A stretch of 64,000 nt of DNA from Sipunculus nudus. Its lineage: Eukaryota > Annelida > Sipuncula > Golfingiida > Sipunculidae. Positions within the stretch are counted from its first letter, which is position 1. The number at the start of each line of letters is the position of its first letter. The translations under genes were made by a program, and so were the position numbers. The notes beneath the pieces were generated by a model. It made no database searches. It was not told the DNA's origin and worked only from the letters and a program-made list of their open reading frames with translations. Positions 16,732 through 49,406 of the stretch are shown here, piece after piece. The stretch covers positions 44,578,840 through 44,642,839 of the forward strand of contig CM049322.1 in NCBI GenBank assembly GCA_026874595.1, written 5' to 3'.

Positions 16732-17115
16732 CTAAAGCAAAAACAATAATCGCCCCTTAAGAATGGCCAGGAAAAGATCCCCAAATATAATCGTTATAAA
16801 CTTGACCCATTTACCGGAGATTAATATTATTTGTGCTGTCAAAGATTTTATTCTTCTTTACCATTTTGTTCCAATAAATTTCCTTTTCATACTCAAGTTT
16901 GTTATATATGTTATATATTTTATATAAATATATATATAATTACAACAAAACTAGGCATAAAGTTAAGATTTCAAAATATACCTACGCAACGTGATAGAGG
17001 AAACTAGTACGGGGTATAATAACAATCTATAATCTTCTTGAATAAATAATTATTGTCAATACTCCATCATATGTTTTGAGACTCTTTTTTGTTGTCATAC
17101 CAAATTCAAACTTAC

Positions 17116-17349
17116 CACGTTTCCCAGACTTAACAAATGAACAAATATCCACCCTCGCTCTTTTGGTAGGTTCCCCGTCACCAAACAATATACATAACCC
17201 GTCCTCCATTGTGAAGTCAGAACAATTGGGCGTATTCTGGCAGGCACATAAATCGATGCATATTTGCAGTTTCATTCCTTCTCTATATACACGTTTAAGT
17301 TCTCTGAATCTCTTAAACTGCCCGTAGCCTCTTCCAGGTAAGGCAAAAA
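17116..17349 (-). CDS. lectin pseudogene exon 2: PAN/apple-like module
   Basis: A 77-codon open exon between a tttcctgcag acceptor and a gtaagt donor, both phase 1. The core ICIDLCACQNTPNC is followed by SDFTMEDGLCILFGDG, and a last cysteine appears in VDICSF. The spacing Cxx(x)C, then C, then GxC matches PAN/apple-type modules, which bind protein or carbohydrate ligands. No lesion is seen in this exon. A 121-codon open frame spans it and reads through the introns; the splice-bounded exon is the better call. Confidence 0.75.
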
Positions 17350-17602
17350 CTGCAGGAAATAGATAATGTCTCATATTTCGACATATACCCAAACTATGTA
17401 TATTATGTACCTGTTGAGCTAACGATACTCTTCAATGATTTGTTTACATTCATGGGTAACTGTGAAAAAAATTGTTCATCAAGATACCCCTGTCCAATAT
17501 ATGGTTTATCCATTGATCGTGATGATGTTAAAAAATATAATTTTTACGACAGTGACAAAATACTTAGCAATTATAAATGTTTTTATAACAGTAATATATA
17601 AA

Positions 17603-25880: not shown

Positions 25881-25882
<2 letters not shown>

Positions 25883-26950
25883 AGTCTCTTTCCGTGTAAT
25901 CTGTTATCTATACACGTAACAAAACCAGGTACCTAATTTACCTGAAACAGCATGTGATAGAAAGGCCCATATTTATGTACATCCTTCTGATAGACACCGC
26001 TGTTACCTCACAAAGCCCCATTTTACTTAACGATATTTAGAAACAAATTTGTTATTGAACAGAGATATGCGGTTTCTGGTGAACGGGATATGGAACATCG
26101 AAATAATCGAGGTAAGGTCACTGAATAAGGTCCCTTATGTCCCTTAGCTCTGATGTGGGGAAAATACTGTTAAACATGGAGGGGTGGAACACAGATGATA
26201 AAGTGAAGAGTTTTTGGTGGGTTTATGTTTTGTCGATTTCGTGGATGTTGGATTTCATCTAAGTTATAAACCATGAGGTACAAAATGAATTGCAAATAAT
26301 TGTTTAAGCATGTATGTTTATATAAATATGATTATTTTTCTTTTCTACTATAATACATGGCCAATTATGTAGATTCAGAACATCTTGATGACGCTTATTA
26401 TATTATGTTCGTAGATATGTCTTGTTGCTATCTTTGTCCTACAGTCGGGTCTAATGTCCTTACGCCATGCTCATCAAGTAACTAAGTGAACGAAAACAGC
26501 CTTGATTTAAGAAGTTGAGTTAGTAGAAAGGACGTGCGTCCCATACTTACAGCTGTGTGTAAAACAATACAAACGAGCAAAACACTACGGAAACATGAGC
26601 TGTTATGTATACAAACTGACTGGTACAACAGCGATACAGAAAAAAACGAAATCTAAGAGTTGTTCAATAATAACGTTAGCTAAAATGCATAAAATGTATG
26701 TGTATGTGTGTGTGTGAATGTCTGATAATGTACATAACTTTATCCAGGTCTCAGTGTGCAAGACAATGTGACAGAGATTGAACAGTAATGTAATCGTGAA
26801 TCCTATTTCTATGGAAATTATCTTTGTCGTGACAAACCTTGACAAAACAACCGAGCTTGTATTACTAATCAATTCATCTATACTGAGCCCTGGAGTTTCA
26901 AGAATCCTGTTTTGACCCCTGGGACTGCAAGAATATTTTTTTTCTCACAG

Positions 26951-26962
26951 TATATTTATATA
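26951..26962 (+). promoter_or_regulatory. TATA box of the one-repeat galaxin-like gene
   Basis: TATATTTATATA lies 57 bases before the ATG, so the start of transcription would be near 26980-26990. A similar box with the following ACCCCG word is kept in the right duplication copy (about 34672) although the gene there is gone. Confidence 0.6.
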
Positions 26963-27018: not shown

Positions 27019-27085
27019 ATGGCGAGAATTTCCGTGACACTGGTGGTACTGCTCGTTTGCCTAGTCGTCTGCTCAGAGGCCTTCC
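27019..27085 (+). CDS. one-repeat galaxin-like gene, exon 1 (signal peptide)
   Basis: ATG opens MARISVTLVVLLVCLVVCSE followed by Ala-Phe, a strong secretory leader with likely cleavage after Ala-21. The exon ends after one base of a codon at gtaagt. Its length (67 bases, 22 codons plus one base) and phase are identical to exon 1 of the five-repeat gene at 49.4 kb. The ATG is the first after the TATA box and lies in a short 5' UTR. Confidence 0.85.
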
Positions 27086-27711
27086 GTAAGTAACTTTACA
27101 TGTTCTCTGTCTTATTCATTAGTACTGAACAGTATACTCACAGAAATAGAAAAGAATATCAGACGAGGATGGATGATAATAATTTCATAGCAGAAAAGTG
27201 GTTTGAAATTCATATATAAGTATAACACATGGTAATGAGTGAAATTTCCGAGCACAATTTTGTAAGTACCGTGTATCCTTTTTCTATAGACAACATCAGA
27301 ATAATAGGAAATATTGTCGGTTAGTAAGTGGTTGAAGGAATGTTGGGTATCGTTGTCTGAAAACTGCTAAATGTAACATATAGAGAACAAACCCGATTTT
27401 TGTGACACATACTATCTAGTAACAGCATTCTTTTCCGGCTTACCTGGTACATAAACATAGAGGTTATTATAATTATACCATTATTAATGGGCGAGGTTAG
27501 ACAGTCATAGGAAAAGACTGATGATAATTAAAGGTAATAAAATGTTAAAATGTATACAGGAGGAGATGTATAACTGAAGGCATGGGAATATTACCTTATC
27601 CAGATTTTTTAAATAAACAGCCAGCATTTGGTTTCTATAAAGGTAGTAATGGAAGTTGTTCCTCTTGCTGAAACTCTGCTGTTACAGTAATGTGTTCTAA
27701 CTCACTTTCAG
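27086..27711 (+). other. intron of the one-repeat galaxin-like gene
   Basis: A 626-base phase-1 intron with gtaagt donor and ctcactttcag acceptor. No other signal was seen. Confidence 0.8.
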
Positions 27712-27887
27712 GGCGCTCACGATGCGGGTACAGAACATACAACCCGCGGTTTGAGTTGTGTTGTCGGGGAGTTGTCAACAGACGGTATGGTTTTGCTACT
27801 GGATGCTGTGGTACCAGAAGTTATGACGCCAATTTTTACAAGTGTTGTCGTGGCAGGGTCAGGAGAAGCTGCGGTTGGAGGGGATGA
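27712..27887 (+). CDS. one-repeat galaxin-like gene, exon 2 (cationic di-cysteine domain)
   Basis: With exon 1 this gives an 80-residue precursor and a mature peptide of about 59 residues. In order: RCGYRTYNPRFELCC, one spacer, GCCGTRSYDANFYKCC, then RGRVRRSCGWRG and TGA. There are eight cysteines, six of them in three CC pairs, the galaxin signature. Arg is very abundant (14, plus one Lys, against two acidic residues), so the peptide is strongly basic. Galaxins are secreted matrix proteins first known from coral skeletons; a squid relative has been reported to be antimicrobial and to affect bacterial symbionts. The basic charge would suit membrane or polyanion binding, which is inference. 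AATAAA lies at 28021. No lesion is present. An upstream in-frame ATG at 27690 is intronic and is not the start. Confidence 0.85.
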
Positions 27888-28747
27888 AATGAACCCTGGT
27901 GGATGATGTTCAATCTTTTCTGTGAATGACTTTTAACCTTCGTGTTTCTAATTGAATTAAGATTATTGGACAACATGCACGCAGTTATGTATTAACAAAT
28001 GCAGGGTTATTTTTTTCGGAAATAAATAACCTTGCTTTTACCAGTTTGGTTCCAGTGGCAAGTAAAGCTGCGCAATACTGGATCGAACATCACATACTGG
28101 TGTAATGTTGTTAAAATATTACGGATGATCGTATACCTTACAAACGCAACATGTATCATGTTCATTTTCTATTCTCAATTAAATATTTGATCTTTTCTGC
28201 ACTTTTTGTTCATTTTTAATACATTACCAGTGAATGAATAACATCTGTAACGTCAATTCTCCCCTGTCACCGTCCTGTAATTGACCTTCAACTTTTATAC
28301 ACCAGAAACAGTAACATAACGTAGAACCTCAGTTATTCAATTCAAAACAGAAAGCAGAAACAAATGAAATACAATAAGGGGATTGGATATGTTCAACTTA
28401 AAACGCAAAAACGATACACAGAACGCATTAACCACTGTTGACGACAGAATGGCGAATACGCAAAGTGGGATGATCATAATGGCATGTTTAACTCGTCATG
28501 ACGAGGGTGGAAGTAGCAGTCATATAAAGGTTTTTTTTTATCAAATGTTTTATGACAGTCCCGTTTTTTCTCCTTATTATTTCTCGTTTGGTCAGGACTT
28601 GCATATAGTTTATACCTCTATAGACAGCGCAGTTTGGCCCACAAGACGGAGGTTTGTTTCATTGTGGCTGTAACATGAACTTTTCGAGAATGCTGATATT
28701 GTAGTATACTTTTTTTCTGCGGTAATATTTGGTATGTATAAAACCGG
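27888..28747. other. 3' flank of the galaxin-like gene within the duplication
   Basis: 3' UTR to about 28040 (AATAAA at 28021), then sequence matched by 34715-35289 in the right copy. A 96-codon open stretch at 28383-28673 is not kept open in that copy and has no motif. Confidence 0.6.
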
Positions 28748-33375: not shown

Positions 33376-34408
33376 CATCGGTCACTTCCCGTGTTATCTC
33401 TCATCTTAACAAAAAGAGGTACCCAATTCACCTGAAACAGCATATGATAAAACGATCCAGGCCCATGTTTATTTACATGCTTCTGACAAACACGACTATT
33501 ACCTCACAAAGCACCATTCTATTAAACGATCTTTCGGAACAAATATGTTGTTGAGTAGAGATATGCTTTTTCGAGTGATATGGGCTCTGAATTACTGATG
33601 TTATCGAGGTTCGGTCACTGAAGAATGTCCCTAAGCTCTGATGTGGGGAGAAATACTGTTATGTATGGAGGAACGGAACACGTTCAATAAAGTGCATAGA
33701 TGTTAGCGGGTTTATGTTTTGACAATTTCGTGGATATGTAATTTCATCTAAATTGAAAAGCATTTTTATAAAATGATTATAAAATATTTTTAAAACATGT
33801 GTATTAATCTGTATCTCTTCCATGTTACTATTATACATGGCCAATTATGTGAATTCAGAAATTCTCAGTGACGTTTGGGAAGTTGTTTCGTAGAGAAGTC
33901 TTTGTACTATTTTTGTACTACAGTTTGGTTCAATGTCCTTACCTCATGAAATTTCTAAGTAAATGAAAACAGCTAAAATATAAACAATGGACTTAGCGCT
34001 AGAACGTACTACAAGATGTGTGCATAACAATACAAACGGGCACAACACTACGGAAACATGAGCTGTTACATATACAAATTTTCGGGTACAGCAGCAATAC
34101 AGACAAACATGGTAACTCTAAGATTCGCATGCATTTTCTAAATAACGTTAGATAAAATCCATTTAATATATTAATGTAATTTATGAATTAGTGTAAAAAA
34201 ATATGTATTACTATCATATCTTTATAATAATTTTTCTTTGTTTGTGAGCTGAGTTGATTATTCATTCTTAATCCAGGAACATTTCTTCGAATGCACGTGG
34301 CATATTCACAAAAGATGTTCATAATGTGTTACACACATATACACACTTGGTCATAATCCTAACCCGTTCACATGATAAAATACATATATAAAACTGTGCG
34401 TGCGGCTG

Positions 34409-41340: not shown

Positions 41341-42165
41341 CTGAAAGATGAGAGCATGTGCGCGTAAAATAAACAAAATATCATTAAAACTGATACTATA
41401 ATGAATCAGTGAATTTGTTTCGCAATATCTGCAATAGTATATTTCTGACTGGACATCTGGATTTATACAGCAAATTGTAATCGGTTATATCTCTCTCATC
41501 AATTATCTACATCCTCTGAACAACAGTCGGGGTGAATATATTCAAGAAGCATTAATCGTCATTTTTTTTCAGTACAGAATAAACCTATCCGTAGCAAGTC
41601 ACAAATCGGAGGTCAGGTGTAGGTACTGCACCTGCGATACGACGCATATGTCTAGTAGTCTCATTAATTGTTCCAATCACACCGACAATTGAATATATAA
41701 ACCCCGCCACAATAATTATTTATGGCAGATGCTTTAAAGTTTTATCATATGAAAAAGTACTGGAAATATTATGCACTAGCTACCCTTTCTATTCCCTAGG
41801 CGTAGCGTGGGTGAAGTTACCTTGAAAGGAATCTGTATTAGACAAATAATGCGAAGTTTGACAATTTAAACTAATAACATCAGCGTCTTTACCGATAAAT
41901 TTTAGAGATAAATTTCTTTTTCTAACTGATGACGGTAACTAATGAAAAGTCGTGCGCGTTCTGTTAAATTTTATGTTCTATCCTGCGCATTTACCCTATA
42001 GCTTAAAAAGGTATTGACAGGTTATTCCTTTTAAAAATTGCAGACTTAACGAATTCCGATTTAACATGGCCTTGTTTTTTATCGTTATAAATCTACTAAT
42101 CATAAGCCAACAGAGCCAGGCTTTATCTGAAGGTGTCTCTAGTAGGCTGGTAAGAAAAGACTCAC

Positions 42166-42410
42166 ATTGCATCAGGCTGTATGCTGCCGCTCTTAGGTGA
42201 GGTTCGAAACACTCAATCGCTCTTATTGCATCTTCACAGATTCCATCATTGTACAAAGTCGCACCTGCACATGTAGGTCTTTTAAGGCAGTGGGTTAAAC
42301 ACCTCAGGGATTGCAAGAAAGTTAGAGAGACATGTAGCCAGTCTGAATCCGATGTCATTGCTTTACTCTCCAAGTTTCCTTCATACCAGATCACATTCGA
42401 ATTTTCAGAG
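42166..42410 (-). pseudogene. PAN/apple-like exon of a second lectin-type gene
   Basis: The frame reads NVIWYEGNLESKAMTSDSDW, then SLTFLQSLRCLTHCLKRPTC, then AGATLYNDGICEDA and IECFEPHLRAAA, ending at a gtgagt donor in phase 1. The CLxxC, PxC, NDGxC spacing resembles PAN/apple modules and the exon in the 17 kb lectin. The 5' border is uncertain: none of the nearby AGs has a good pyrimidine tract. The open frame itself is intact. Confidence 0.5.
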
Positions 42411-42909
42411 CTGACGCCTTCATGGGATTATATAATAACTGTCTCTTTAGCGAATATAGCAAAACATTTATATGTTGGTTATAAAAAAAATGAAACAAAC
42501 ATGTAAAGGACTTTTTGAATATGTTTAATATTATGGTACTTCTCAGCTATCGTTTACCTCAAAATAAAACTCCATTTATATATTTATTTCATCTACTCTA
42601 AACTGAAAAGAAAAGCATATGTAGTTTTTGCCGAGGTTGTTGACCATAATCTATTAAATTGAAGTTGCTTTTAAATAATCTTTATATGTATTCCTCCCAA
42701 GAATAATTATTCACCGATCTCTTATAATGTGACAAAGGAAATTCATATAAATGTACTTTTTGCTGATAATGTGATCTTAAATTACCTAAAATAACCTACA
42801 AGTCCGTATGGCTGATCTTAACATCTTTATTCTTTTTCCAAGAATGATTATGTATGTATTTACAATGTTATCGGGTCAAAAATATATTTTTATTTTACAC
42901 TTGACTCAC

Positions 42910-47473: not shown

Positions 47474-47991
47474 TTAACCCCTCCAGAAACCTCCACATGA
47501 CCTTTGAATTCTTCCGTTACAACATTTGTAGAACCTGGCATCGTAACTTCTGGTGCCACAGCAAGCTGGCGAGATTCCACTTCTTCTGTTAATAACTCGA
47601 GAGCAGCAAAGATAGAACCTGGCGTCATAGCCACTTGTGCCGCAACATGACGGGCTCAGTCCGGACCGTCTCTGGATGACGCCAGAACAACACATGTAGA
47701 ACCTGGCGTCATAGTTCCTGTTCCCGCAGCAGGAAGGGCTGAGTCCACTTTTACGTTGGATGGTGCCGCCGCAGCACTGATAGAACCTCGCATCGTAAGC
47801 CCGGGTGCCGCAACAACTCGGGCTAAGTCCAGATCGCCTTTGTATTGTGCCTGCACAGCACATGTAGAACCTGGCGTCGTAACCCCTCCTGCCACAACAA
47901 CTCGGGCTCAGACCACTTCGCCTCTGCAGGACTCCGGAGCAACACATGTAGAACCGTGGATCATAAGTTCTCGATCCGCAACGTGCAGTAC
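47474..47991 (-). CDS. five-repeat galaxin-like gene, exon 2
   Basis: With exon 1 this gives a 194-residue secreted precursor. After the attttcag acceptor: TARCGSRTYDPRFYMCC, then five tandem repeats of 28 residues with consensus CCSGxIQRRSGLSPSCCG followed by xRxYDARFYM, then CCNGRIQRSCGGFWRG and TGA. The mature part has 24 cysteines: 11 CC pairs plus one single cysteine near each end. This is the galaxin design of repeated di-cysteine motifs, cross-linked and secreted, known from skeleton or shell matrix and host-microbe surfaces. The repeats are closer at protein than at DNA level, which suggests selection on the protein. The C-terminus and the single terminal cysteines match the one-repeat gene at 27.7 kb. 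No lesion. Exact role unknown. Confidence 0.88.
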
Positions 47992-49339: not shown

Positions 49340-49406
49340 TCCATAACGCCTGCGAACAGACCACAATACAGGCCAGCACTAGAAGTGTAGCGTAGAATCT
49401 TGTCAT
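49340..49406 (-). CDS. five-repeat galaxin-like gene, exon 1 (signal peptide)
   Basis: ATG opens MTRFYATLLVLACIVVCSQA followed by Leu-Trp; cleavage after Ala-20 is likely. The exon ends with one base at gtaagt. At 67 bases and phase 1 it is identical in structure to exon 1 of the one-repeat gene, and both leaders end in VCS(E/Q)A. The 5' UTR is short. Confidence 0.87.

Follow-up and report, generated by a model that had tools for sequence, protein, structure and literature searches.

Genes and other features of the window

The stretch of DNA analysed here (the window) comprises 64,000 nucleotides of the Sipunculus nudus genome and corresponds to C17:44578840-44642839 of the 1.43-Gb assembly that we searched for members of the gene family described below. 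Its plus strand carries a small gene (27019..27887) with two exons. Exon 1 (27019..27085; 67 nt) encodes the leader peptide MARISVTLVVLLVCLVVCSEAF and contributes the first base of the next codon; it ends in a C that is followed by the splice donor GTAAGT. The GT-AG intron (27086..27711) is in phase 1, and exon 2 (27712..27887), which is preceded by TTTCAG, encodes a mature galaxin-type peptide and terminates with the stop codon TGA at positions 27885-27887. The joined reading frame comprises 80 amino acids. A TATA-like box (TATTTATA; 26953..26960, plus strand), a motif match with a putative function, is located 66 nt 5' of the ATG, and a poly(A) signal (AATAAA; 28021..28026, plus strand) is found 134 nt 3' of the stop codon.

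This two-exon structure and the 80-residue precursor had been proposed in a first-pass annotation of the window; judged by the splice motifs and the open joined frame, the model appears to be correct to the base. Within about 6.5 kb of upstream DNA, the sole exon passing our leader filter, which accepts only exons with a hydrophobic core and a GT donor in phase 1, was that at 27019-27085. Since the phase-1 donor is built into the filter, the phase of the intron rests on the relatives of the small gene and on the open joined frame rather than on the filter. A candidate phase-1 acceptor positioned exactly 11 nt 5' of the first Cys codon was present at 10 of 15 first-unit anchors, that of the small gene among them, and several of these 10 anchors possess other candidate acceptors as well. 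The alternative phase-1 acceptor of the small gene at 27688 has pyrimidines at only eight of 14 positions, versus 11 of 14 at 27712, and it is not spaced 11 nt from the first Cys codon.

A long relative of the small gene lies about 20 kb away in the opposite orientation (49406-47474, minus strand; 194 amino acids). Its exon 1 (49340..49406) encodes the leader MTRFYATLLVLACIVVCSQALW and is homologous to that of the small gene; a phase-1 intron follows, and the entire repeat array is contained in exon 2 (47474..47991). The array consists of six units of 28 amino acids (a first, four internal and a last unit), and the mature part of the protein contains 11 di-Cys motifs and a total of 24 Cys residues.

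Elsewhere in the window, the segments 25882-26640 and 33408-34291 look like a dispersed repeat, both showing about 71% similarity to the same stretch near C17:54688 kb. Two open frames on the minus strand (17027-17431 and 41996-42427) contain several Cys residues and have, by eye, the look of PAN/apple-type exons; neither of them yielded a Pfam match at E <= 0.01.

The small gene encodes a galaxin-type protein

The small 80-amino-acid protein is matched by the Pfam family PF24748 (Galaxin_repeat) with 36.4 bits (E 6e-9), a score above the curated cut-off of 28, and its long relative is matched by the same family with an E-value of 9e-39. The earlier description of the protein as galaxin-like is thus borne out. 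The Cys order reported for it (C, CC, CC, CC, C) was recovered as well, with the spacing C-x11-CC-x13-CC-x11-CC-x7-C. The di-Cys motifs are evenly spaced, and a single Cys precedes and follows the run, as is found in galaxin-like repeat proteins. With only three di-Cys, the peptide falls short of the many tandem repeats of such proteins (10-23 di-Cys in calcarins); as this is a difference in size, we refer to the gene as a minimal variant of the galaxin-type proteins.

Weaker Pfam matches stayed below their cut-offs. Against the small protein, IGFL scored 12.1 bits (E 0.2; cut-off 25); against the long relative, the carbohydrate-binding family Carb_bind reached 17.6 bits (E 0.0046; cut-off 25), and Neurensin and FaeA gave E-values of 0.11 and 0.5, respectively. 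When viral and prokaryotic relatives were sought, 17 and 5 stretches, respectively, fitted a pattern, and none of these was confirmed by tblastn. A conotoxin-like or other toxin reading, raised by the eight-Cys framework, was considered; the PF24748 match and the family context favour a galaxin. To our knowledge, none of the conotoxin frameworks follows the pattern C-CC-CC-CC-C.

Comparison of the repeat units revealed that, in the small gene, a first unit is followed immediately by the last unit of the family, with the internal units absent. Its first unit carries the motif Y-N-P-R-F, which reads Y-D-P-R-F in three relatives, while the last-unit motif K-CC-x-G-x-V/I-x-R-S-C-G is found in four members. 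For its last unit, the four best matches are likewise last units, each from a different relative; the assignment of its first unit is less clear-cut, since the best match is a first unit and the second best an internal one. The first-pass annotation had taken the gene to encode a single-repeat protein, and had itself named the contrary case, namely that a larger protein with many repeats exists of which it represents only one exon. Tested against the long window gene, this contrary case was rejected: the two-exon structure is the same in the long relative, and both end units are present in the small gene. Judged by sequence, no complete cysrichin-type galaxin found in this genome looks to be smaller.

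Members of the galaxin family in the S. nudus genome

Two protein searches of the assembly yielded at least 63 matches at E <= 0.001 (150 of 174 candidates scored) and 75 matches at E <= 0.01 (149 of 149 scored), respectively. The matches of both fall in at least 16 places, a family count that is a lower bound. Exon 2 was modelled for 14 of these 16 places; omitted were C5:5584-5586 kb, where the frame is broken by a stop codon, and C4:75257 kb, which was found later. The exon-2 products of the 14 modelled members range from 58 to 1271 residues and contain three to 89 di-Cys motifs. Very long single open frames are present at C5:6873-6877 kb (1271 residues; 89 di-Cys), C13:56380-56383 kb (1162 residues; 82 di-Cys) and C5:6827-6829 kb (704 residues; 49 di-Cys). 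At C2:82924-82926 kb, galaxin-type units share one open frame with a long Arg/Pro/Thr-rich stretch whose di-Cys motifs have other spacings. A different small galaxin-like type is represented by two genes at C4:75316 kb and C4:75257 kb; these are alike, small and basic, contain di-Cys, do not have the usual first single Cys at the start of the exon, and end in CCGW-x-C.

The Cys residues of the closest relatives can be described by the formula C-x11-CC-(x13-CC-x11-CC)n-x7-C, in which n is 1 for the small gene, 5 for the long window gene and the C16 member, and 9 for C17:54674 kb (19 di-Cys; ten units). For the C7 member, n is 2, and one of its spacers measures 12 instead of 13 residues. Only two of the 14 modelled members contain three di-Cys: the small window gene and C17:54692817-54692993. 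The latter (minus strand) possesses a different tail that does not contain the usual last unit, and its stop codon directly follows a Cys at a position where its relatives have CC; no more units were found when all frames of the following 300 bases were inspected. Its state is not simply that of the small window gene, and it may be what is left of a longer gene after truncation.

Leader exons of 67 nt followed by GTAAGT are shared by both window genes, the C16 member and C17:54692 kb; relatives on C16 and C17 also resemble the small gene in their phase-1 organisation. A 52-nt candidate leader was found for the C7 member, and a 61-nt leader was read from the sequence for C17:54674 kb. Those of C17:50496 kb, C4:75316 kb, C13 and C2 are unconfirmed candidates, while at two C10 and three C5 places no leader passed the filter in the stretch examined.

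Conservation of the coding sequence and broken copies of the leader region

When the two window genes are compared with each other, their end units differ at most synonymous and at few non-synonymous sites (pS 0.89, pN 0.23; 58 codons; Fisher p 1.5e-14), and the same holds for their leader exons (pS 0.85, pN 0.22; 21 codons; Fisher p 5e-6). This contrast was also seen when the long gene was compared with the C16 member (p 1e-21) and the small gene with C17:54692 kb (p 1e-10); all of these Fisher tests use rounded counts and treat sites as independent. Near-saturated synonymous sites combined with kept amino acids support both exons as coding. Leader exons similar to that of the small gene occur in three relatives, with 57% identity in the long window gene (E 0.003), 57% in the C16 member (E 0.016) and 55% in the C7 member (E 8e-5). 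Collectively, the small gene looks real and conserved.

When 183 bases spanning parts of its leader and intron were used as a query, four matches were obtained; besides the gene itself, these were three broken copies on the same chromosome. One of these (C17:54689213-54690241, plus strand) has a stop codon at the end of the leader and a degraded exon 2, while the start codon has been lost in the other two (C17:50330030-50330133, minus strand; C17:56425116-56425197, plus strand). Exon 2 was not found in the stretch examined for the copies at C17:50330 kb and C17:56425 kb. Three broken copies of the leader region indicate that the lineage of the small gene is prone to loss, and the window gene appears to be the only intact gene found with this leader.

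Composition and charge of the small peptide

Cleavage of the small precursor is presumed to occur before F22, a site placed by reading the sequence. Its leader is hydrophobic, small residues (SEA) precede the presumed cut, and similar leader exons are present in its relatives; the product is probably secreted. Likewise, the earlier reading of a complete small secreted peptide with one repeat's worth of di-Cys motifs agrees with the sequence. Starting at F22, the peptide comprises 59 residues (7.0 kDa), among them eight Cys, 14 Arg and one Lys versus one Asp and one Glu, and has a net charge of +13 and a pI of 10.3. The 15 basic and two acidic residues counted previously in about 59 mature residues were found again.

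The strong Arg-rich basicity emphasised by the first-pass annotation holds in part. The peptide is unusually Arg-rich, but basicity is not unique to it: its close relatives are basic as well (the long window gene has a net charge of +22 and a pI of 9.5), and the charge is merely densest here. Further small basic members are found on C7 (one) and C4 (two). With 22.4 net charges per 100 residues, the small peptide ranks at the top of the 14 modelled members, followed by one with 15.3, the count starting at exon 2 for members whose leader is not settled. Charge density falls with length, both among the 14 members (Spearman -0.69, p 0.006) and among six close relatives (-0.83, p 0.04); these p-values are indicative only because the members are related. 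In the long window gene and the C16 member, the end parts carry 14.5 and 16.4 charges per 100 residues, respectively, and the parts between them 11.6 in both. The excess in charge density of the small gene is thus explained in part by the less-charged internal units of its relatives; the remainder stems from extra arginines in the small gene itself.

A predicted disulfide ladder

According to the portions of the calcarin study consulted, galaxins and calcarins possess a run of di-Cys motifs flanked by single Cys residues; a short-turned beta-hairpin begins at each di-Cys, and within a pair the first Cys bonds with the second Cys of the preceding hairpin, thereby forming a ladder (PMC12419799). 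Applied to the small peptide, this published pairing implies a ladder of four bonds that is closed by the single cysteine at either end; by analogy, we infer the pairs C6-C18, C19-C33, C34-C46 and C47-C55, with loops of 11, 13, 11 and 7 residues. AlphaFold models built from the window sequence only placed hairpins with two-residue turns at three of five Cys sites in the small protein and at 10 of 13 in the long one, counts that were taken from the strand lists of low-confidence models (mean pLDDT of the best of five 58.6 and 58.5; other models 25-47). Sequence searches of the PDB returned no relative at E up to 5 and 10, and Foldseek, run with the long model only, gave 11 matches at E up to 10 and none at E <= 0.001.

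Proposed function of the small peptide

Taken as a whole, the best explanation, to which we give somewhat less than even confidence, is that the locus is a functional gene for the smallest complete cysrichin-type galaxin in this genome, encoding a secreted, closed, Arg-rich ladder that binds polyanions. Each Cys site would start a short beta-hairpin, disulfides would tie neighbouring hairpins together, and the peptide would be compact, with every cysteine bonded and a surface rich in arginine. It would be secreted by an epithelium, most likely that of mantle or gill, and would bind polyanions electrostatically, either the acidic glycans and acidic proteins of a shell matrix together with forming carbonate, or surface mucus and microbes. 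Cysrichin, a characterised relative with closely similar repeats, has an extracellular matrix or mineral-modifying role; by analogy, we slightly prefer such a role over the direct killing of microbes.

A tenable but doubtful alternative is that the gene encodes a host-defence peptide of mucus or haemocytes, which, with its 7 kDa, net charge of +13 and four predicted disulfides, would bind to and disrupt bacterial envelopes. Size, charge and Cys count fit this proposal, as do the antimicrobial activity of the squid galaxin EsGal1, known here from the available parts of later papers (PMC5216023, PMC8547416, PMC5380838), and the response of galaxin-annotated genes to immune challenge in mussel haemocytes or gills, as described in the portions of three transcriptome studies consulted (PMC6697025, PMC7772429, PMC7773633). 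However, the long relatives are also highly charged, the mentions in the mussel transcriptomes depend on annotation, and galaxin is grouped with recognition or lectin genes in two of these studies (PMC6697025, PMC7773633).

We consider it rather unlikely that the joined end units serve as a stand-alone mini-scaffold, that is, as a new class of short, Arg-rich, four-disulfide defence peptide. Were this true, shell-matrix proteins and antimicrobial peptides would mark the opposite extremes of a single gene family, whose members would differ solely in charge density and in how many internal rungs they possess.

It is improbable that the peptide serves as a diffusible ligand or regulates assembly, in which case its short ladder would pair with or cap the longer galaxins of the same tissue and thereby limit their assembly. 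The small gene consists only of first and last units resembling those of its long neighbour, and the two genes are about 20 kb apart; yet the closed-ladder model satisfies all Cys residues and would leave no obvious covalent linkage. That the gene is a decaying or non-functional contracted copy, as the three broken leader-region copies on the same chromosome might suggest, is very improbable in view of its intact frame, GTAAGT donor, poly(A) signal and eight retained Cys, and of the strong amino acid conservation against near-saturated synonymous sites.

Returning to the closed, polyanion-binding ladder that we favour, a ladder that closes at three di-Cys would be the smallest unit found here for making and testing the galaxin fold. 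One could then ask whether the end units suffice for the binding of minerals or microbes or whether a long array is required; the differing reports on coral (matrix), mussel (vaterite) and squid (antimicrobial) galaxins raise this question.

Comparison with known galaxins

Galaxins occur in coral skeletons and mollusc shells, and have been placed among shell-matrix or mantle genes in the parts of several studies consulted (PMC9365450, PMC9768464, PMC9100110). Of the characterised proteins considered, the closest is cysrichin of Hyriopsis cumingii, a mantle shell-matrix protein that is described in the accessible sections of the report as having 163 amino acids with five repeats, a 28-residue period and a pI of 8.15 (PMC10045328). 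There, its repeats are printed as AYDARFSMCCSDNIQSRSGL and PACCGT, and its expression is given as strong in the mantle, with low levels in gill, adductor muscle and foot, whereas the abstract instead names mainly mantle and gill; RNAi altered the prismatic and nacreous layers, and vaterite was induced in vitro (PMC10045328). Cysrichin shares with the S. nudus proteins the 28-residue period, a leader peptide and a basic character, and its motifs AYDARFSMCC..SGL and PACCGT are similar to the YDARFSLCC..SGL and PACCGT motifs seen in the relatives, a likeness that refers to printed motifs set against units of the long window gene, the C16 member and C17:54674 kb rather than to a full-length alignment. 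Units of 28 residues with the YDARF-CC..SGL..CCGT signature are present in these three members; the small gene has kept the unit length and, in its last unit, CCGTRSYDA, but not SGL. With its 80-amino-acid precursor, two units and pI of 10.3, it also differs from cysrichin in size and charge.

Coral galaxins (Galaxea, Acropora), as far as the consulted text describes them, likewise have a signal peptide and repeats of about 30 amino acids, each with two di-Cys; the multi-repeat Acropora protein, with 338 amino acids and an acidic pI of 4.52, differs from the tiny, strongly basic small peptide (PMC2726143). Since cysrichin is only mildly basic and the Acropora galaxin acidic, the matrix role need not carry over to the S. 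nudus peptide. In the consulted part of the calcarin study, the calcarins of Sycon ciliatum show a di-Cys run with one single Cys on each side and a predicted hairpin ladder; they differ in having 10-23 di-Cys versus three, and these sponge proteins do not possess such detailed repeats (PMC12419799). EsGal1 of Euprymna scolopes is a mollusc galaxin with reported antimicrobial activity, to which we liken the small peptide by description only, via portions of later papers (PMC5216023, PMC8547416, PMC5380838). The PANTHER family is given as 623 proteins in the calcarin study (PMC12419799), and short galaxins may exist elsewhere as unannotated proteome entries. No report of a two-unit galaxin was found in the portions of the open-licence literature searched. 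While the galaxin family as such is already known, the small gene of S. nudus, as far as its sequence allows this to be judged, appears to be new as a minimal two-unit form.
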